From positions 873,001-937,000 of the forward strand of contig NJPS01000004.1 of the NCBI GenBank assembly GCA_002946415.1: 64,000 nt of DNA, written 5' to 3'. The translations under genes were made by a program, and so were the position numbers. The stretch is from Rutstroemia sp. NJR-2017a BVV2 (lineage: Eukaryota > Ascomycota > Leotiomycetes > Helotiales > Rutstroemiaceae). Shown here in pieces: positions 3,312 through 47,278 of the stretch (position 1 is its first letter; each line of letters starts with the position of its first letter). A model generated the notes under the pieces. That model was given only the letters and a program-made list of their open reading frames with translations, did no database searches and was not told where the DNA came from.

Positions 3312-5210
3312 ATGGCGAAAACGAAGAATCTGGCAAAACAATTTGCGGAGTTGGAGGATCCCATCCCAAAGGGTGAGTAAACACAGCTAGTTACAGTATA
3401 CTGGCTTCCAAGTGCTAATCTGGTATGCATTTTGCAGATTTCGATCCGGAGGAAGAAAGACCCGCGCAAGACAGCGAAGATGAAAGTGGTAGTGAGAGTG
3501 ATGATGGATTGGCGGGGACTGAGCACTATGTTGAAGTTGGGTAAGTAATACCCGGATTCGCACTGAGACCAATAATTGCTCATTGATCATTGCAGAAAAA
3601 GTAAACTTCGCAAAGCAGAAGAAGTTCCTCTCGGACCCGAATATGCTGGATCTCGAGTTAGTCGCAAGCAATTGATGGATGGCGATGATAATGATGTACC
3701 TGATCCGCAAGATGAGAGCGCCGACGAAGTTCCGGATGGAGAAGACATTGGTGTTGAAGAAGATATGGAGGTCGATAGTGATGAAGCTCTTGGAGAGAGT
3801 GATGAGGAAAAGTTGAAGGATTTCGTGTTTCGAGGAAGTAAGAAACCGAGGAGACCAGCGGAGGTCAATGGCGTGAAGAAAAGACCCACCGCAGCGGATT
3901 TTATGTCCGATTCTAGTGAAGGAGAAGGTGCAAATTTGGGCGACGAAGAGAATGAGGAGGAAGACAGTAATGATGTGGCAAACGAGGACGAAGCGGACGA
4001 AACTGACGAGGATATTCTTGATGTTGACGCGCAACACCCAGAAGCCATGGACGGTGTTCAAAAAAGTTCCGCTGACGAGGAAAGTGAGTCGGAAAACCCT
4101 GATCAAAGTGGCGAGGAGGCTGGCGACAGTGAAGAAGAAGAAAGCGAGGACGAAGCATCTGACGACGATAACGAAGACAACGAAGATGAAGACGCTAGAC
4201 GTGCCGAGCTGCGAAAGATCATGGGAGAAGAGCAAAAGACTGTCGTAGCGACAATCTCTCAAGCAGCCAAAGCCGATGCCGACAAGGGTAACGCTGTCAA
4301 GCAACAACGCAAGGCCTTCGACTCTCTTCTCAACGTTCGTATTCGACTCCAGAAGGCACTCGTTGCGACCAATTCGTTGCCTGTAGCAGAAGATAAGGAC
4401 AAGGTGGACGCCGAAGGAAACCCATTCCAAGCTGCCGAAGAAGCTGCTCTCAAACTCTGGAACACCATCGATAGTCTTCGACACGATCTCACTAAAGCAA
4501 CAAGTACCGCCAAAACTGGGCAGAAACGCAAACGCGACATCGATAGCAGCACACCTTCCTTCACCATCTGGGACCGCATGCAAGCCACCGAACTCACAGT
4601 CCTTAACAACCGACAAACCGTCCTTGAGAAATGGTCCAGCAAAGTCCGCGCCACAACCGCAGTCCCCGTCTCCCGCAAACTCAACCCCACCGCGCCCCAA
4701 CAATCAATCACCTCCCTGCTCCACGACACCCTCGCAACATCCTCATCCCACCTCATCTCCCGCACCCGTGTCCCCCGCTCCTGCGCCCCCATCCAAGCCC
4801 GTCAAAAACTGACCATCGCGCCCTCTATCTTCGACGACGCTGACTTTTACCAACTGCTACTGAAAGAACTGCTCGATCAGCGAATGGTCGATTCCTCCAA
4901 CGCCAATAACAGCACGGCGCCTACGGCTATCAAGCAATGGACTGCGGTGAAAGAAGCCAAGACGAGGAAGAATGTAGATACGAAGGCCAGTAAGGGCAGG
5001 AAGATGCGGTTTACGGTGCACGAGAAATTGCAAAACTTTATGGCGCCGGAGGATCGCAATAGCTGGGAGGAGAGCGCGAGAGACAGGTTTTTCGCAACGT
5101 TGTTAGGGAGGAAGATGGATTTGGGCGAGGAAGAAGGTGGAGGAAGCGATAGGGATGAGGAGGACGGTGGAAATATGGAGGAGGAGGGCTTGATGCTGTT
5201 TAGATCTTGA
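3312..5210 (+). CDS. bfr2: BFR2/AATF (Che-1) ribosome biogenesis factor
   Basis: Three exons (3312-3372, 3438-3540, 3596-5210) give 592 codons. The N-terminus MAKTKNLAKQFAELEDPIP and the following FDPE segment are typical of the AATF/TRAUB family. Residues about 55-210 are extremely acidic (long Asp/Glu/Ser runs). The AATF domain follows from about residue 230 (NVRIRLQKALVATNSLP, then WNTIDSLRHDL). The C-terminal TRAUB domain holds DDADFYQLLLKELLDQRM, KGRKMRFTVHEKLQNFM and FFATLLG. BFR2 works in the nucleolus in the SSU processome during 18S rRNA maturation, with a role linked to Golgi transport in yeast. The acid-rich stretch creates a long open antisense frame that I regard as a shadow. Shares a 180-bp promoter with IND1. 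Confidence 0.92.
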
Positions 5211-31803: not shown

Positions 31804-32854
31804 CTAAACATCCTCCATAGTTCCCGCCGGCTCATCATTATCCTCATCATCATCGAAACTCGCAACCGAGGACATGGTATCGTCATCTGAATCCTCTGCA
31901 CCCGCTTCATCCGCTGCATCTTTACTTGCGTATTTCGTTACGTATTCTATTTCCTCATCGTCAGTTTCTATGTCCCGTCCATCTGCACCCACCGGAAATA
32001 ACCCACCTTTGACCTTAACCTCATAACTCTTTGGCTCGCGCATAAGTAAAGCCGCTGCCTCGCCGTTCAGGGGGTCGGTTGGGTTGGGATAGCGGAGAAG
32101 TTGTGGAAGGAAGACTTCGAAGATGTTGATCATGTCGAACATAGGGGACCAGGTTTGGTTGATTACGTCGAGGCAGACGGAGCCGGATCTATTTATTTGT
32201 GCACGTCTCAGTTCCATATCCTTCTTCAAGCTCTTATGCAGTTGGGGGAAACTGACAACTCATCGATATTGGGGTGGAAAATGCGGTTTACGAAACCGAT
32301 GCTGGGGGATTTGTAGGGATACTGATCGGGAAGTTCGACGTGGACTTTCCATAGTCCGCCTTCGAATGGTGCTGTAATGCTGTTAGTGTATGCGACGGTA
32401 GAGGGGTAAAAGGAAGGACGAACTTTCTTCGGGACCCTTAAATCGGACGTAGAATTCCTGCCTATGTACCACATATGAGTCGTGTGTTTGGGCTGTTTCA
32501 GTGTGAATACATACACTGCAAAACATTAGCAACTTCTATTTCCTCGCGCATAGCGGTATTTACATACTATTATCATTGACCAGAGTCACCTCATAATCCG
32601 ACATCAACCTATACATCGGTAAGTATGAGCTCGAAGTGGCGGTTGACAAAGAATCGCATACATCCTACAACAACAAACATTAGCAAGTCTATCTTAGATA
32701 TATCACATATCCGCAGAGGAGAAAACTTACTTCATGACCTAAATACCGCGGAAAAAACAACCACATATTAGTCTCCTCACTATCCACAGTATGAGTATGT
32801 CCATATCGAAACATTACTCACATCAGTCTCGATCCGACGTCTAGGACTGGACAT
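31804..32854 (-). CDS. ubc8: UBC8/UBE2H ubiquitin-conjugating enzyme E2, with micro-exons
   Basis: My model has nine exons: 32854-32822, 32738-32731 (8 nt), 32664-32662 (3 nt), 32608-32568, 32515 (1 nt), 32461-32424, 32371-32257, 32188-32007 and 31946-31804, giving 187 codons. It reads [20 protein letters not shown], then [20 protein letters not shown], then [20 protein letters not shown]. It continues [20 protein letters not shown] and [13 protein letters not shown] with the catalytic Cys, and has an acidic tail ending PAGTMEDV. The alignment remembered for yeast Ubc8 (DVMKLLMSD, INDSMQEF) has exactly this spacing, which is what demands the 3-nt and 1-nt exons. UBC8 is the E2 of the GID/CTLH ubiquitin ligase that degrades gluconeogenic enzymes in yeast. 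The final intron (32006-31947, 60 nt) has no stop in frame and may be retained. Confidence 0.9.
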
Positions 32855-35911: not shown

Positions 35912-37512
35912 CTAGGATGTACCATCCCGCAAAGTCTCAATATCTATAACCTCCTTCACAGCTTCCGTTGTCAACACAAGCGGCGAATCGTCTCGTACAC
36001 ACACGCTGTCCTCGATTCTGATTCCCGTGCCCCTGAAGTGAACGGGCCAGCGTTCGTCCTGCGGTACATAGATACCTGGCTCGATTGTGATGCAATGTCC
36101 TGCTCGAAGGATCTTATTCCGAGGGTACCCCGGACAATCATGGACGTCAAGTCCAATGTAGTGGCCGACATGATGAGGAAATAAGGTTTCAATGGCATTT
36201 CCTGACATGTCGAATCCCAGTTGCTGGAGTTGTTCTTTCAGGCCAATAGATGTAATAGTATGTAGCTTATCCAGCGTTAGGTTTGCGCTCTCCCTACATA
36301 AGGCGATACTGCTTCGTTGGACTCGTAAGATTGCTTCATAAAGGTCTCTTTGAGCGGCAGAGAATTTACCACTGACAGGCCAAGTCCTGGTAATATCTGT
36401 GATATACCCTCCATATTGGCCTCCCGCGTCCACTAAGACCATGTCATCTTTTCTCATTTGATCGTTATTCGAGACATAATGAATGCTGAGAGCATTTTTG
36501 CCAGCGCCAACCACTGGGACATAAGCGCTTGCCTCACAGCCTAGAAGTTTGAACCTGTAATCCAGATATGCATGAAAATCCTTCTCCAAGTTGAATCGTT
36601 GACCCATGGCTTCAGTGAATGCCTTTCCCGACAGTTTGCCAGCCATCCGCATGTTCTTGATTTCTGCCCCGCTCTTTATGACGCGCAATTCATTCATCAG
36701 AGGCCTGAGAGGTCTGACTTTGCTGTCCTTGATCATTTTCTTGATATCAGCTGATATAGGATCAGAACTTGTGGTAATATCGGTATAGACTTCACCAGCC
36801 CCAGCAACTAGTGACCGTAATAGATTGTGTATATTGTTAACATCCCCGGTCTATTTTGGCATCAGCATTGATACTTCAAGGCCTTAGAGACAGAGATTGC
36901 CTCGGATTGCCTCACTTCATCTGCGTTGAAAACATCCAAAGCTGCTTGCTCGCCGGACCTAGCACCATCCCATAATTCTGCATGCGAGTCCTTCGGCCGA
37001 ACAAATAAATGAAAAATGTATTGCTCCGCTGACTCAACTCTCTGTATCACTGCTACAGAATCTGGTTCGTTAAATCCTGTAAGATATAAAAAGTTTGGTT
37101 CTTGGTGAAATTCGTAGAAGACTGCTCCTGAGCGATATTTGAGAGTAGCCGATGGAAGAATCGCAATTCCATTCGGAGGCAAGCTCGCAGCTAATTTTGC
37201 GCGTCGATCAGCATATTCCTGAGCCGTGATATTTCGAGTTACTGCACAGAATGATGTTTAGCAGACCGTTGAAAGATATTGACTTTAATTCGTACTTTCC
37301 CCTGGGCCTAGTAAGTGCGGATGTGTTTCATGGACAGGTTGACCGAATTGAAGATCGGCAGCAGACACGGAAGTATATGTTCTCTTCGCTTGACATAGTG
37401 TACGACGTTTGAAGCCTGTCACAGCAATTTGCGCGGGCAATCGAGGGTTTGACGATGGAGCGGATGTTATCCAGCGCAATTGCTGCAATATCGTCCGTCT
37501 AGACCTCATCAT
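35912..37512 (-). CDS. icp55: ICP55-type mitochondrial intermediate-cleaving aminopeptidase (M24B)
   Basis: Three exons (37512-37296, 37241-36916, 36850-35912) give 493 codons. A strongly basic presequence (MMRSRRTILQQLRW; RRT..QAKRTY) precedes the APP N-domain (GITAQEYADRR-like region, YRSGAVFYEFHQEPNFLYLTGFNEP). The pita-bread catalytic domain follows. Metal ligands are visible: Asp in LVDAGGQYGGYITDITRTWP (two), His in LFPHHVGHYIGLDVHD, Glu in TIEPGIYVP and Glu in GIRIEDSV. ICP55 removes one residue from proteins already cut by the mitochondrial processing peptidase, raising their stability under the N-end rule. The N-terminal presequence and APP arrangement favour ICP55 over the cytosolic Xaa-Pro aminopeptidase. 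MRSRR one codon later is an alternative start. Divergent from DBF4. Confidence 0.9.
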
Positions 37513-38051: not shown

Positions 38052-40225
38052 ATGGCAGCAGTATCACTATCTCCTCTGCCGCTCTCTATATCTACAGCTA
38101 TGTCGACTAGGAGAGCGCCTCTCCAGAATAATCCTAATGCCGCGAATTCTCCTTTCCGTCCGGTAGTGTCGACCACTACCAAACAGAAGAGGTCATATGC
38201 CAATATACAACGCGAAGAGTCCTATGGACAACCACCTCCGGCAAAGAAGCAGATGCTGGATAGCCATAGCCAGGTTTTAAGAACGCCTCCACGTCAAACT
38301 ACTGCTCAATTGTCTACGGAAGGGAGGGTCTTAACTCGGAAGTCGACCACCACCCAGCCATCTCATTATGAGGGAAAGAGTGCTACTGTTAGAGAGAGAG
38401 GTTATCAGCATTATATTACCAAGGCCGAGAGAGTACCGGAAGAGAACTTGGAGTCGATACGGCAGTGGCAGAAGCATTATAGGAAGAATTTTCCCAAATT
38501 TGTTTTCTACTTTGAAAGCATACCGGAGGACGTCAGATTGAAATATACTCGGCAGGTTCTGGCTTTAGGTGCAGTAAGTCGCTGATGGATGGGATGCGGT
38601 AGCCACAACAGTAATATTAACGTGTATACAGCGCGAAGAAAAATTCTTCTCTAATGAGGTTACCCATGTTGTCACGACTCGATCGATTCCCGCAGAGGTC
38701 CCACAGAGCTCTAACGCCGCCAACTCCTCGACTACTAACGAACAGAATGGTACTATCAATCCTTCGTTACTGGATAGGTCTTCTGAAACCGCCGACTCAA
38801 GGGATCCCAGGTCGAAGTTTACCTTTGAAGCACCCATACCTCGACGACTTGGGACGTCAGATGCTAATGGGGATGTAAGACGCCAGCAGGTTCGCAGTTC
38901 GGATGTTCTGTATAAGGCGCGCGAATTGGGGATGAAAATATGGGCCCTGGAAAAGTTGCAACGAATGCTGACGACAATGTTCGATACTGAGACCGGATAT
39001 CAAAGCACACATAGCCACAACACGAGGAGCCACTCCATCCAGGGCAGCACGATAAGCAGGGCAGTTCGCGAAACAGATTTATCTCAGCTGTTGAGGCATG
39101 AACGAATTCATGGACCTTCTGATCGCGACCATACTGTTGCTACCAAGGAATTGAATATATTTCGAGGACCCTTCATTTACGTTCACGATATTGATGAGAA
39201 ACAGAAGCCTATCATGGTACGGGAATATGCAAAAGTTGCTCACAAAGAAGACGGAGACTGGCCTCAATTCCGGAGTGTTGCAAATGGCAAGTGCCCATTC
39301 GTCGAAGAAGTCGAGTATAGCCGGAGAGAAACGGAAAAGGAGAAGGAAATAATCCGCCTCCAGAAACAGAAAGAAAAGGAACGAGCTGTCGCACCAAGAA
39401 CACGAGCTGCCGCTGCGACAGAGGCAGCTAAAATGCAACCCCCAAAGACAGTTAGCAGTAAACGAGCATTGGCTCAAATGGATGACGGGGCTAATAGAAG
39501 TGCTACTACTACGACAAAACAAGTGAATCCTACCGAGCCTGCTAGAGATAGCCACGACGTGGATGCTGAATCGTCATCTCGAGGTCAGATCGCTTTTGTC
39601 AGCCGTGCTGGCGTTGGTCGATTATTTGGCGGTGAGCCTGTAGCATCAGGTGTTCAACCATCGAATATTACCTCAGCTATCCGCTCTCAAATGATTTCAT
39701 CCACCGCAGCTCAACCCGGATTGAAAGCCGGTACAAGTAAAGAAGTCCACGGTCTTCAGAGAAAGGTCCTAGAGAAAACAAGCGGTGGGCCAGGATCACA
39801 CGGATTAAGTTCTCACCGCATGACAGATATCACCGCGACTGTGAAAGAAGAAACGGCATCACGACCAGCCAAAAGGGAAGCTCAGAAAAAGCTCGGCGTA
39901 ATCGAGGAAGATTATGAGACTGGTGAAAAGGAAGCAGCTGCAAAGAAGGTTGAAGCAGCCCGTAAGGCAAAGGCTATTCAACAGCGCAAGCTCGAGAAAC
40001 GTGATCCTAAACCTGGTTATTGTGAGAATTGCGCCGACAAGTTTGAGGACTTTGATGAGGTATGTTTAGCAGCCACTGTTCAGCACAAGAGAACACATTC
40101 TAACGCTCATATAGCATGTCCTTTCCCGCAAACATCGCAGGTTTGCCGAGAAGATCGACAATTGGAGAGAACTTGATGCCCTACTTAGTCAACTTGTTCG
40201 TCCTCTGCGAGAACTATCCGATTAA
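38052..40225 (+). CDS. dbf4: DBF4, regulatory subunit of the Cdc7 kinase
   Basis: Three exons (38052-38573, 38632-40059, 40115-40225) give 686 codons. The N-terminal third holds the BRCT-like motif N: PKFVFYFESIPEDVRLKYTRQ then EEKFFSNEVTHVVTTRSIP. Next comes the conserved VLYKARELGMKIWALEKLQRML. Motif M is visible as IFRGPFIYVHDIDEKQKPIMVREY with CPFVEE. The C-terminus is the motif C zinc finger: GYCENCADKFEDFDE, completed after splicing by HVLSRKHRRFAEK (Cys2His2). DBF4 activates Cdc7 to phosphorylate MCM helicase at origins. Two starts are possible: 38052 or MSTRRAPLQN 16 codons later. The middle region is disordered, with Lys/Glu-rich coil-like segments (RRETEKEKEIIRLQKQKEKE). Confidence 0.92.
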
Positions 40226-41696: not shown

Positions 41697-44084
41697 TTAA
41701 GCTGCTGGAGCAGGGGTCTCAGAAGTGATCAACTTGGTGATCTTTCCAATAGCAATGGTTTGTCCCTAGACTAGATGTTAGTATTATACCACAAGCAATA
41801 TGAACGTCTAGCCAATCTTACCTGATCTCTGAGCGTAAAACGACCCAGTTGAGGATAGTCTTCGAATTTCTCCACACATACCGATCCCGCACCACCGATG
41901 ACTTCCATACGCGCGATGATGCTATCACCCCTCTTAGCATGCGTAGGTGGTACTTTACTCTTTCTGCCTGTTCCCTTCTGCAACTTGTGGAGTAGAACAG
42001 CGAAAGTGACTTCTTCGATGGCGGAGTGGACGTGCATGACACAGTTGAACCCAGCCGACAGAATACTCTTCAGTTCCAAGACACGAATTTGTGCCTCGAA
42101 AGCTGTGACGCAGTGCACGAGACGTTTGGGCGAGCAGAGCACGAAGCCAGGAAGAATATCTTCTTCTTCGATACCACGGAGTCGAAGTCGGACTTGATCA
42201 CCGCACTGCGCGGCATTTACTTCTTCTTCTGTTTCGCCGTATGTTACGACTACTTCGACCTTTTCTTTATTGGGCATCATGACCAAGCTCATGCCCTTCT
42301 TGACAACGCCGGATTCGATCTTGCCCTCGACGATCGTACCCATATCTCTGTATTTTCCGTTGACGGGCATCATGAATGGCGCATTAACTTTACGCTCGAG
42401 TTGGGTCATGTTGTCGAGGTACTCGAGGAGAGATGGGCCATTGTACCATGGAGCGATACCTTCTGGAATGCGGTCCTTGATACCCATGGTTTGTTGAGCA
42501 GCGATTGGCATGAAGAATACATCGGTCTTCAGATTGTAGCCAGTTCCCTTCAAGAATTGAGCTAGTTTGGTTGTGCACTCCTTGTATCGAGCTTCTGACC
42601 ATTCCACCGTTGGATCATCCATCTTGTTGATAACCACGACTAGTTTGTTCACACCTTGGGTCTTGGCTAACATAGCGTGCTCTCGAGTCTGTCCACCCTT
42701 TTCGAATCCAGTCTCGTATTCTCCCTTTCGGGCACTGATGACCAGAATTCCTACATCGGCTTGCGAGGCACCACCAATCATACTAGGAACATAGGTCTTG
42801 TGGCCAGGGGCATCTAAAATACTGTATCTTCGTTTTTCCGTCTCGAAGAATCCTCGTCCAACTTCGACAGTCTTTCCCTTAGAACGTTCTTCTTTTGTCA
42901 AGTCGAGTGCCCACGACAAATACCATGTCTCACGGCCCATTTCCTTGGCTTCTTTCTTGTTCTTCTCCATTGTTCTTTCGTCGACCATTCCGGTTGCATA
43001 CAAAATAGAACCACCGAGTGTTGATTTACCAGCATCAACATGCCCAATGAAGATAATGTTCACGTGCTCTTTTCCGTAAATTTCCTTCAGGGTGTCCTCA
43101 TCAACATCTGCAGCTTGTTCCTGTTCGACAATATCAGCAGCGCGAGCAGCTGCCTTTGCAGCACCGGTAGTCCTAGTTGGACTGGATCGGCCTGAAGATG
43201 GAGTAGGTGAGGTTTTCCCACTGGCTGAAGCGGGGGTCTTTTCTGTTTTTTCGATAGCTTTGGATGCGGTAACCTTGGCTCCGGCTTCCGCAGGTGTTGA
43301 TGCTGACACTGATGCAGCTGCAGATGCTGGAGTGGCCTCCTTCTTTGCCTCTTCCTTTTTCGCCGGAGTGGAAGTGGTACCGATAGACAGGACCTTGGTA
43401 GCCTTTGGTTTCGCTGCATCCCCTCCAATGCTCAAGACTTTTGGTGCGTCTCCTCCAATACTCAGAACTTTTGGCGCACCATCCTTCACGGCCACAGGTT
43501 TATTGAGATCTGCTGCGCCAGATGAGCCATCTGCTGGTCTCTTCGCAATAACAGGTGTCTGTCGAGGTTGTTGTGATGGTGCAGCAGCTGCTTGTGGTTG
43601 CTGAGCATAGCCGGGGTATTGCTGCGCTGTTGAGGTAGAAAGTATGGTGGTTAGCGGGGCATATCATGTAGAGTCCAACCAGAATCGCGAGCAGACGTGA
43701 AAAGTGCAGAAGCTAGATGCCTATGTGTTTAAGAAATCGAAGAAAATAGTAAATACCATATCCTGCGTTGTAGCCTCCCTGCTGATATCCTGAATTGTAG
43801 CCTCCCTGCTGATATTGATTGTAACCTTGCTGGCCATATTGGGGATATCCGCCATAGCCTTGGTTTTGGTATTGGTTGAAGCCCTGACCATACTGATCAT
43901 ATCCTCCGTATTGTTGATATTGCTGACCAGGCTGGAAAGATTGCGCTCCTGGCTGAAATGAATTTGCGCCGGGTTGAAATGTACGAGCTTGTGGGTTGTT
44001 CAAGTTCATTTGTTGAGTTTGTCTTGCCAGGTTATTGTCCTCCTGGGCAGCAGGGTCGTCCTCCCACGAGTTTAAGTCGGACAT
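41697..44084 (-). CDS. sup35: SUP35/eRF3 translation termination GTPase with prion-like N-domain
   Basis: Three exons (44084-43757, 43626-41822, 41765-41697) give 733 codons. Residues about 15-125 are rich in Gln, Asn, Tyr and Gly with repeats of QQGGYN and related forms, comparable to the yeast prion domain. A charged middle region contains three copies of KVLSIG, then Ala/Ser/Thr/Lys-rich sequence. The GTPase core shows G1 GHVDAGKST, G3 DAPGH, G4 NKMD and the C-terminal domains end GQTIAIGKITKLITSE. eRF3 binds eRF1 and GTP to drive peptide release at stop codons. Without splicing of the last intron the C-terminal 22 residues are lost. Divergent from the YRB30-like gene. Confidence 0.96.
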
Positions 44085-44769: not shown

Positions 44770-47278
44770 ATGGACTTTCTCTTAGGCAAGGTATGTTACA
44801 CCAAAACGGTTTGCCTCACTGGAGTTCACTTGCTAATCATCCTCAACTCCTCAGGTCACTCAACATGCTATGAACTATGCTATTAGGTCAGATCCTTGAT
44901 TTGATGATCAAGAACTCCAGCTAACAATGAATCAGGTCTGGTATTGGAATAACTGCTTCTTTCGCGATCAGACAGACGTCAAGGCTCTTGAAAGTGCGAG
45001 GCCCTGTTTTCCTTCTCTCAAAATTCTGACTTACATGCTGCCAGACTGTGGATGATAATGGCGACTATCGAGAACTCCATGACCTTCAGCGGCGTCTTGA
45101 CAGTAAGATTAAGGTAGGATTATTGCCTTGAAATACTTCTAGTTTTGAGTGAAGGACAGTATGCTTACTCTGAATTCATAGATTATTTCGCCCGCCATAG
45201 ATATGGTCGAGCTCATGTGAGTTCTAGTCAGCGCTGATCAAGTTCTCCTGCTAATAAATATCAGCTCAGCAAGAGGCAATACAACGCTCGAATCAGCAGT
45301 AACTCTTACGAAAGCTCTTCGATGGGATATTCAATCTCTCGGGATGCGCCTTGCAAAGGCTGCAAGTGCTGAAGAGCTCTCACGTCGAAACAAGAACCGA
45401 GCAAAAACCAGGGCCGCACACGAAGCGGAAATAAGAGCGATAGTTAGGGATATCAAAAATCTTCTGACTAGGATTGAGGATGCAGTACCACTCATCAACC
45501 TGGCCATCACCACTTCTGGGGCAAGCCTATCAACGACTCTTCCACCTACTGTGTCACCATCGAGACTATTGCAAGCAAGTACCTTTCTCACTGCTGGTGA
45601 CACCCAATACTCCATGAATCCCAATGTACCTGCACAAATTGGACCAGCATTCACTCTTTCTCTTTACATGTTATTCGCTGGACATGCTTACCGAGCCCAC
45701 GAAGAAGAAGATGGCCCCAGAGAAACAACCTGGAAAGAGGTAATACATAAAGCAAGGGTCCGACTTTTAAGGGTGCCTCTACGTTCCACATATGGTTCGG
45801 AACAAGCAAAGCATACCAAGGAAACTAGGGATTATTTCACAGGCAAAGATTCATCTTTGATCACTGGCGAAGGCAAGATGACTGAATATGCGTATCATCT
45901 TGAAATTATAGAAGATTTTGATGACGATCGAGTTCATTCTCACGAGGACGGTGAACCGCAGCCGGCACCTTACGGAGGTGTGCAGCTAGCGGGTATTCGG
46001 GAAGCATTACCTATACATCAAGTGTCTAAAATATTCTATGCGGACACCGGTAAGATATTGAATATTGGTAATCAGGATGAAACAAACAGCCCAGTGCTGC
46101 TGTTAAAGAGAGATATCAATGCTCTTCCCCCAAGAAGAATGATGGAGGGGCAAGAAAGGCAAGAGGAGTGGTATGAGGATCTCGAAGATATCCCCCCCGG
46201 AAACACACCGCCATCTGAACAGGAAGACCGGGACGACGACGACGACGACGAAAACGATATCGATAGACAGCTTCGGAAAGAAAGCATGGCAACGTCATCT
46301 CCATCGCCAGCGAGGTCACCGGAGCTACCACAAGAGGTAGACACAGCATGGCGACTCCCACATGACCTTGACCCGGAGTGGCTTGCCTTTGAGGTGTACA
46401 ACGAGGCAGAAGACTCCGAGTCGGAAGATGAATTTGAACCAGAGCGCATAGAGGATTCGCCTTCCGCATCAGGTCGGCCCAGCTCTTCTGGGAGGCAAGC
46501 TACTACGAATGATCTCACAGCGGACCTATCTAAGCTCAAACTCTCGTCGACACCGGCCACCCCAATATCTCCGGCGCTCCCAAATGACTTTCAAAATTCT
46601 CCCATTCCTCTTTCCTTTAATTCTGCTAAGCCCCCAATGAACAATGCATCTCCCTTCGGTCCAATTCGTAGTTCTCTGTCCCTCCTCGAGATGCTCATTC
46701 GTCTTACTGCTCTTCAACAATTCCAACAAGCATCGCACTTATCTATCCCTGATGAACTGCTTACCTTCTTCCTGGAAGAGTCATCTACCACTGGTGCAGG
46801 TGGTGATGCTACAGAGCGAAAACGCACTCGTCTACAGGCGAGACGCAAAGTCGGTTTCGATCCTTACGATGAAAGTCCAGTGAAACGGCATGGGGAAGAA
46901 TATCAATATGGAGGTGGCGCAGACGATAGATATTCGAGAGAAGGAACACCTTATGAGGAACTACCTGGCAACCCGCGATGGGCCCGCGAAAGAAGTTCTA
47001 CGCCACAACGCGATACTGTTCGCATGAGTCGCGAAATACCTGATTCTCCAGTATCACCTTACAGACCAGTGTCTCGGTCGCAGCAAAGATTCCAGCTAAG
47101 ACAGGCAAGAGGTCCGTTAGAAAGAGTGCATGTAGATAGGAAAAGACAGAATGAGGTTAGGGCAAGCCCATTGGGAAGAGCAATAGGTGAAGACATTGAA
47201 AGTAGTTTGGGCACAAGTTCGGTGCTTGGAAGTCCGACTTTGGTTGTTGGGGAGGACTTGAAAGGCGAGGCAGAGTAA
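44770..47278 (+). CDS. YRB30-type Ran-GTP binding protein
   Basis: Six exons (44770-44790, 44855-44886, 44936-44993, 45045-45113, 45182-45216, 45265-47278) give 742 codons. The N-terminus MDFLLGKVTQHAMNYAIRSG is the typical start of the fungal Ran-binding family (PF05508). Conserved blocks follow in the first 250 residues: DYRELHDLQRRLDSKIKIIS, ALRWDIQSLGMRLAKA, and TLSLYMLFAGHAYRAH. The rest is acidic and disordered, with an Asp run (residues near 340, a gac trinucleotide repeat) and Ser/Pro-rich segments. Yeast Yrb30 binds Ran-GTP and interferes with RanGAP action, so a role in nucleocytoplasmic transport is inferred. Five short 5' exons (21-69 nt) are consistent in frame. Family identification is good; function in this organism is inference. 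Confidence 0.85.

Follow-up and report, generated by a model that had tools for sequence, protein, structure and literature searches.

Exons of a single nucleotide have been described in nuclear genes for APC11 and VPS55 of plants (PMC4674806, PMC8831610) and for CYP621A of Fusarium (PMC12940212), which its authors call the first such case for a fungal gene (Nelson and Syed 2026). The authors of the APC11 study considered simultaneous removal of the two flanking introns very unlikely, and suggested intron definition together with recursive, stepwise splicing (Guo and Liu 2015, PMC4674806). In the case of VPS55, some plants have transcripts both with and without the single-nucleotide exon (PMC8831610). 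A mitochondrial case has been reported in placozoans (PMC5436844). The one-nucleotide exon is thus already known as a kind. The UBC8 case described here, its spread among fungi and the run of 8-, 3- and 1-nt exons were not found in print: the partially covered literature on exons of UBC8 and ubiquitin-conjugating enzymes yielded no paper on such a structure, and that on nuclear one-nucleotide exons in fungi, also covered in part, yielded none besides CYP621A.

The window, i.e. the entire 64,000-nt stretch of Rutstroemia DNA that was analysed, belongs to an assembly of 43.4 Mb in 79 contigs, and carries a UBC8 orthologue on the minus strand at 32854-31804. As judged from its sequence, the gene is with high confidence UBC8, the ubiquitin-conjugating E2 of the UBE2H class, of a Rutstroemia-like fungus, with nine exons, three of which are micro-exons (8, 3 and 1 nt), and with two complete short introns around a single T, probably removed in turn by intron definition. 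The predicted product has 187 residues. Its UQ_con domain (PF00179) scores 134.9 bits against a cut-off of 27, and the 13-residue active-site region is present, with a Cys that we take to be the catalytic one. By overall sequence relation the protein falls into the UBC8/UBE2H group. The closest PDB chains are 8pmq_E (named E2-24 kDa, presumably yeast Ubc8; 244.8 bits) and the UBE2H chains 8pjn_2 and 2z5d_A (231 and 225 bits), followed by 2onu_A (213 bits) and 1yf9_A (189 bits), before the score drops to 98 bits for the next chain. The part of the product from residue 42 onward matches, at 100% identity over 99% of its length, a protein of Rutstroemia sp. NJR-2017a BBW (P0094), a species which a taxonomy look-up places in the Rutstroemiaceae, Helotiales, Leotiomycetes.

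All parts of the gene are read on the minus strand, and all eight introns are of the GT-AG type. Exon 1 (32822..32854, 33 nt) is followed by intron 1 (32739..32821, 83 nt, GTGAGT..TTTAG), the 8-nt exon 2, GTCATGAA (32731..32738), intron 2 (32665..32730, 66 nt, GTAAGT..GCTAATG..GTAG), the 3-nt exon 3, GAT (32662..32664), which is supported by the sequence and by the models of relatives, and intron 3 (32609..32661, 53 nt, GTATGC..TATAG). Exon 4 (32568..32608, 41 nt) ends in AATA, in phase 1. Intron 4 (32516..32567, 52 nt, GTATGT..GCAG) has a probable branch site, CTAAT, at 32525..32529, and intron 5 (32462..32514, 53 nt, GTATGT..CATAG) a possible weak one, CTCAT, at 32475-32479, both positions having been counted by hand. 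Between these two introns lies exon 5, the single T at 32515. Exon 6 (32424..32461, 38 nt) begins G-CAG-GAA-TTC, in phase 2, and is followed by intron 6 (32372..32423, 52 nt, GTTCGT..TACAG), exon 7 (32257..32371, 115 nt), intron 7 (32189..32256, 68 nt, GTCAGT..AATAG), exon 8 (32007..32188, 182 nt), intron 8 (31947..32006, 60 nt, GTGGGT..CTGAC..AAATAG), which gives KVK|EYV, and exon 9 (31804..31946), with the predicted stop codon ending at 31804. The initial annotation had placed exons 1 to 5 and the start of exon 6 (32461) at these same positions, bounded each segment by AG upstream and GT downstream, and given the introns around the T as 52 and 53 nt, all of which we could reproduce. Intron 8 is an addition, and was the sole intron that it had missed. 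This intron is open in frame, so that its retention would yield a protein of 207 residues, and a model from Rutstroemia sp. NJR-2017a WRK4 (P0127) is annotated with intron 8 retained.

Two side observations concern the surroundings of the gene. Reading frames elsewhere in the window, at 3576-5210, 38926-40176, 41771-43495, 45344-47278 and 35912-36736, match AATF-Che1/TRAUB, Dfp1/Him1, an EF-Tu-type GTPase, a RanGTP-binding protein and an M24 metallopeptidase, respectively, and look like ordinary conserved genes. In the assembly, pattern and domain matches occur at identical coordinates on contigs C25 and C74, and identical intron-like sequences are found on C8 and C27, on C50 and C74, and twice on C4 (711011/764077), pointing to redundant contigs or segmental duplication.

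The micro-exons are hard to avoid if the gene is to encode a protein of the family. When the first donor was fixed and all later GT-AG introns of 40-250 nt were allowed, up to five introns and up to the end of exon 6, 6474 chains were in frame and free of stops in the N-terminal part, and exactly one of them, that of the initial annotation, yields the family protein. Its residues 1-41 are identical to those of three transcript-like relatives (P0002, P0016 and P0072). The need for exons of 8, 3 and 1 nt is therefore borne out by the enumeration, and the sequences of relatives agree. The single T is flanked on either side by a complete GT-AG intron, and is required for the frame: as had been predicted, skipping it shifts the frame, and the product is truncated to 68 residues. 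The nearest rival chains read NDNMYEF, NDNSMQEF, in which a GTAAAT donor opens a single 102-nt intron, and VMKLMSD, in which the 3-nt exon is left out. With the micro-exons, the message should contain the junctions ..GTCATGAA-GAT-GTTG.. and ..AATA-T-GCAGG.., with the cDNA form AATATGCAGG. At odds with them would be cDNA in which AATA or AATAGTAT is joined directly to GCAGG, or the forms AATAGTATGCAGG or AATAGCAGG.

To assess chance occurrence of the signals, the 106-nt interval was shuffled 20,000 times with its dinucleotides preserved and its first six and last three bases fixed. In 5.1% of the shuffles, AG-T-GT by itself arose between two introns of no less than 42 nt each. In 0.035%, it came together with YAG, GTRNGT and a YTRAY branch site located 9-25 nt upstream. 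The corresponding values for a 3-nt exon (GAT or AAT) were 0.64% for the bare arrangement and 0.02% with good flanking signals.

Three protein searches, from which the best 120 of 5726, 6048 and 6447 matches were taken, gave 268 distinct proteins. By source tag, 57 of these are transcript-like, two come from both kinds of source and 209 are NCBI/UniProt models, 203 of them from Pezizomycotina by name. The transcript-like status is deduced from source tags and uninterrupted frames, rather than from library records, class labels were mostly assigned by us, with six taxa looked up, and the gene models are mutually related, which makes the counts below counts of non-independent events. Among the matches listed, the junction at the single nucleotide is canonical (NDNM[QS]EF or a close variant) in 54 of the 57 transcript-like relatives; of the exceptions, P0158 has intron-like residues running into QEF, and the other two, P0268 and P0238, start at or after the junction. 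Among the Pezizomycotina gene models listed, it is canonical in 12 of 203, which may be right predictions or stem from genes without these introns. The other junctions served as controls: among the matches listed, exon 7/8 is as expected in 202, exon 8/9 (KVKEYV-type) in 194 and exon 6/7 in 152 of the 203 models, and the respective numbers for the 57 transcript-like relatives are 56, 51 and 56. Both proteins found in the two kinds of source (P0050 and P0056), which were counted in neither group, are canonical at the single-nucleotide junction, as are five of the six NCBI rows left out of the 203 for being non-Pezizomycotina (two plants, Saitoella, Dipodascopsis and two Lipomyces).

Since the first search had also scored the disputed N-terminus, a search scored on residues 42-187 only was included. 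Among its listed matches, five of six transcript-like proteins and two of 112 NCBI Pezizomycotina models were canonical. One close pair allows a direct comparison. The transcript-like P0098 reads MKMLMSD..NDNMQEF, whereas the model of Ilyonectria destructans (P0119) reads VMKLMSD..NDNTPF..RQEF, and yet the C-terminal parts are identical in 137 of 137 residues. The transcript-like proteins of relatives, 54 of 57 of them canonical, imply that the mature RNA probably contains the T. DNA of fungal relatives was sought in the viral_contigs and genome_contigs collections with alignment A1, which gave some pattern matches, none of them encoding a relative.

The signatures of the one-nucleotide exon in orthologues are strong, and were read from protein models rather than from DNA. 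Gene models that are wrong at this point, 191 of the 203 among the matches listed being non-canonical, still retain traces of its boundaries. In all 137 non-canonical models that have the NDN anchor, the following residue (K, N, T, S, R, I or M) has a codon starting with A, as expected if exon 4 ends in AATA, and in 57 of them this residue is S, as on read-through of the donor A|GT. At the other boundary, R precedes [QS]EF in 66 of the 131 non-canonical models that reach this motif, as read-through of AG|G to AGG would give, and P0191, with H before SEF, is incompatible with a G-ending codon. Both signatures are combined in 13 models, which leaves one base (modulo 3) missing. In 23 models, M follows NDN before the sequence goes wrong. 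The next residue has a T-starting codon in 22 of these (all except P0027), and residues with T-starting and then G-starting codons, as T|GTNNG requires, are found in 20 of 23, against a background of about 7%; P0155 and P0216 fail at the G-starting codon. The M-start models include Aspergillus (Eurotiomycetes), Lasallia (Lecanoromycetes), Sclerophora (Coniocybomycetes) and Hortaea (Dothideomycetes), as well as Lachnellula and Diplocarpon, which we take to be Leotiomycetes, and Fusarium, Beauveria and Cordyceps, presumably Sordariomycetes. In the Pezizomycetes Ascodesmis and Trichophaea, the models read NDNRSEF, of the same length, with R for M. We infer that these, and five similar models with NDNRQEF, are RNA-guided, and that the one-nucleotide exon was absorbed as a mismatch. 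Because the wrong models still bear the marks of a donor that follows AATA, of an acceptor that precedes GCAG and, in many cases, of a T followed by GTNNG, it is very probable that the one-nucleotide exon exists and is conserved across much of the Pezizomycotina. Protein records of many related fungi thus suggest that these small exons are widespread and often mislead automatic gene prediction.

For the 3-nt exon, the alternative is that it is skipped, as the main form or in an isoform, by use of a single intron (32730-32609) that leads to VMKLMSD. Such skipping would preserve the frame, and among the matches listed exactly the residue of the 3-nt exon is absent in 39 of the 203 NCBI models (VM[KR]LMSD). 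However, the skipped form was found in none of the 57 transcript-like relatives listed, 43 of which have the whole N-terminus, and all of these 43 read VM[KR]xxMSD; the cDNA form that includes GAT would read AAGATGTTG. Moreover, in all 19 NCBI models that read past the 3-nt exon after VMKM, the next residue is Y (16 models) or C (3 models). This is what a conserved donor at this place, of the form GTA[TC] or GTG[TC], would produce. Skipping would probably also cost one residue of the N-terminal helix. We regard it as very unlikely.

A one-nucleotide exon could be dispensed with altogether if a single 102-nt intron (32563-32462) with the donor GTAAAT (32558..32563) were removed; the protein would then read NDNSMQEF and be one residue longer ahead of QEF. 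This possibility, which was absent from the alternatives listed in the initial annotation, is in frame, free of stops and economical in introns, and five NCBI models (P0014, P0102, P0222, P0237 and P0251) indeed read DNSMQEF. None of the 57 transcript-like relatives does, however, and a good intron, GTATGT..CTAAT..CAG, would be left unexplained. The donors also differ in their use in this genome: in combination with CTAAC and CAG at intron-like spacing, a pattern that covers short introns with CTAAC only, GTATGT is enriched (455 occurrences versus 133 for the reversed pattern), whereas GTAAAT is not (103 versus 96). The 102-nt intron is accordingly most improbable.

Two further in-frame solutions are extremely unlikely. 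The 123-nt intron CTG|GTCAAT..GCAG|GAATTC would keep the frame and delete VNDNMQ, just as the initial annotation had stated, and a shifted pair of introns would replace Q to give NDNMYEF. The 54 canonical transcript-like relatives speak against both, and the remaining three (P0158, P0238 and P0268) have neither form. Finally, a single base decides the frame, which might suggest a sequencing error or a decaying gene near 32515, but the recurrence of the same two boundary signatures in models of many species and the 100% identity to P0094, over 99% of the part from residue 42 on, make this a negligible possibility.

For introns of about 52-53 nt, intron definition is the probable mode of recognition. 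U1 at the donor of intron 5 would cover the three bases ahead of it, among which is the AG of intron 4. With this AG hidden, introns 4 and 5 would not be fully recognisable together and would have to be removed one after the other. Sequential removal can soundly be inferred from this arrangement. Intron 4, which has the better branch site, is perhaps the first to leave. In the spliced message, the T would stand in the middle of the Met codon of NDN-M-QEF.

A premature stop results if any of introns 1-7 is retained or if exon 2, 4, 5, 6 or 7 is skipped, and among the cases tested only skipping of exon 3 or retention of intron 8 gives an in-frame outcome. In yeast, Ubc8 is the E2 of the GID/CTLH ubiquitin ligase. 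It is conceivable, if rather doubtful, that the 8/3/41/1 run is ancestral to the Pezizomycotina and owes its persistence to a benefit, in that the slow and ordered removal of two introns one base apart would serve as a checkpoint in splicing and so determine how much Ubc8 is available. The idea derives from the premature stops that retention of any of introns 1-7 would cause.

Other known systems share some features with UBC8. In the fungal mitochondrial rnl gene (Ophiostoma, Ceratocystis; PMC12308204), two introns are likewise separated by an exon of one nucleotide, but they are group II introns of a mitochondrial rRNA gene, whereas those of UBC8 are spliceosomal. Fungal stwintrons (PMC12403724, PMC5639578) share with UBC8 two introns placed so near each other that they have to be removed consecutively, and the term stwintron-like, used in the initial annotation, fits loosely in this sense. 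However, in a stwintron the outer intron has one of its splice signals interrupted by the internal intron, whereas in UBC8 the donors and acceptors of both introns are intact, and the T is retained in the sole exact chain. A stwintron in the strict sense was therefore rejected. Xlr2 of Trichoderma (PMC11121469) also has a micro-exon in a filamentous fungus, which is a switch by being included or not, whereas skipping of the UBC8 one-nucleotide exon would lead to a premature stop.

The one-nucleotide exon of APC11 (Guo and Liu 2015, PMC4674806) is missing from annotations, like that of UBC8, and is conserved over a deep clade, the land plants. APC11 and VPS55 are other genes, in plants, and were verified by RT-PCR and RNA-seq, whereas the UBC8 case is predicted from its sequence and from protein records of relatives. 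CYP621A (PMC12940212) is, like UBC8, a nuclear fungal gene for which nearly all automatic models are wrong, and in both an exon end in phase 1 and a start in phase 2 force one base, in the middle of a conserved codon, between two introns. In CYP621A this base is a G in a Gly codon of a P450, and the exon is supported by SRA reads and found in Fusarium orthologues. In UBC8 it is a T in a Met codon, near exons of 3 and 8 nt, and the T|GT signature occurs in models from six classes and shows itself indirectly in Pezizomycetes. If our reading is true, the N-terminus of Ubc8 is wrong in most of the public models examined, and such models would mislead structure or alignment work on the fungal protein. 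UBC8 would provide a conserved test case for the removal by the spliceosome of two introns one base apart, and a one-nucleotide exon beside exons of 3 and 8 nt in a housekeeping gene. It would also be the second nuclear fungal gene with a one-nucleotide exon in the part of the literature covered, and a far more widespread case than CYP621A.
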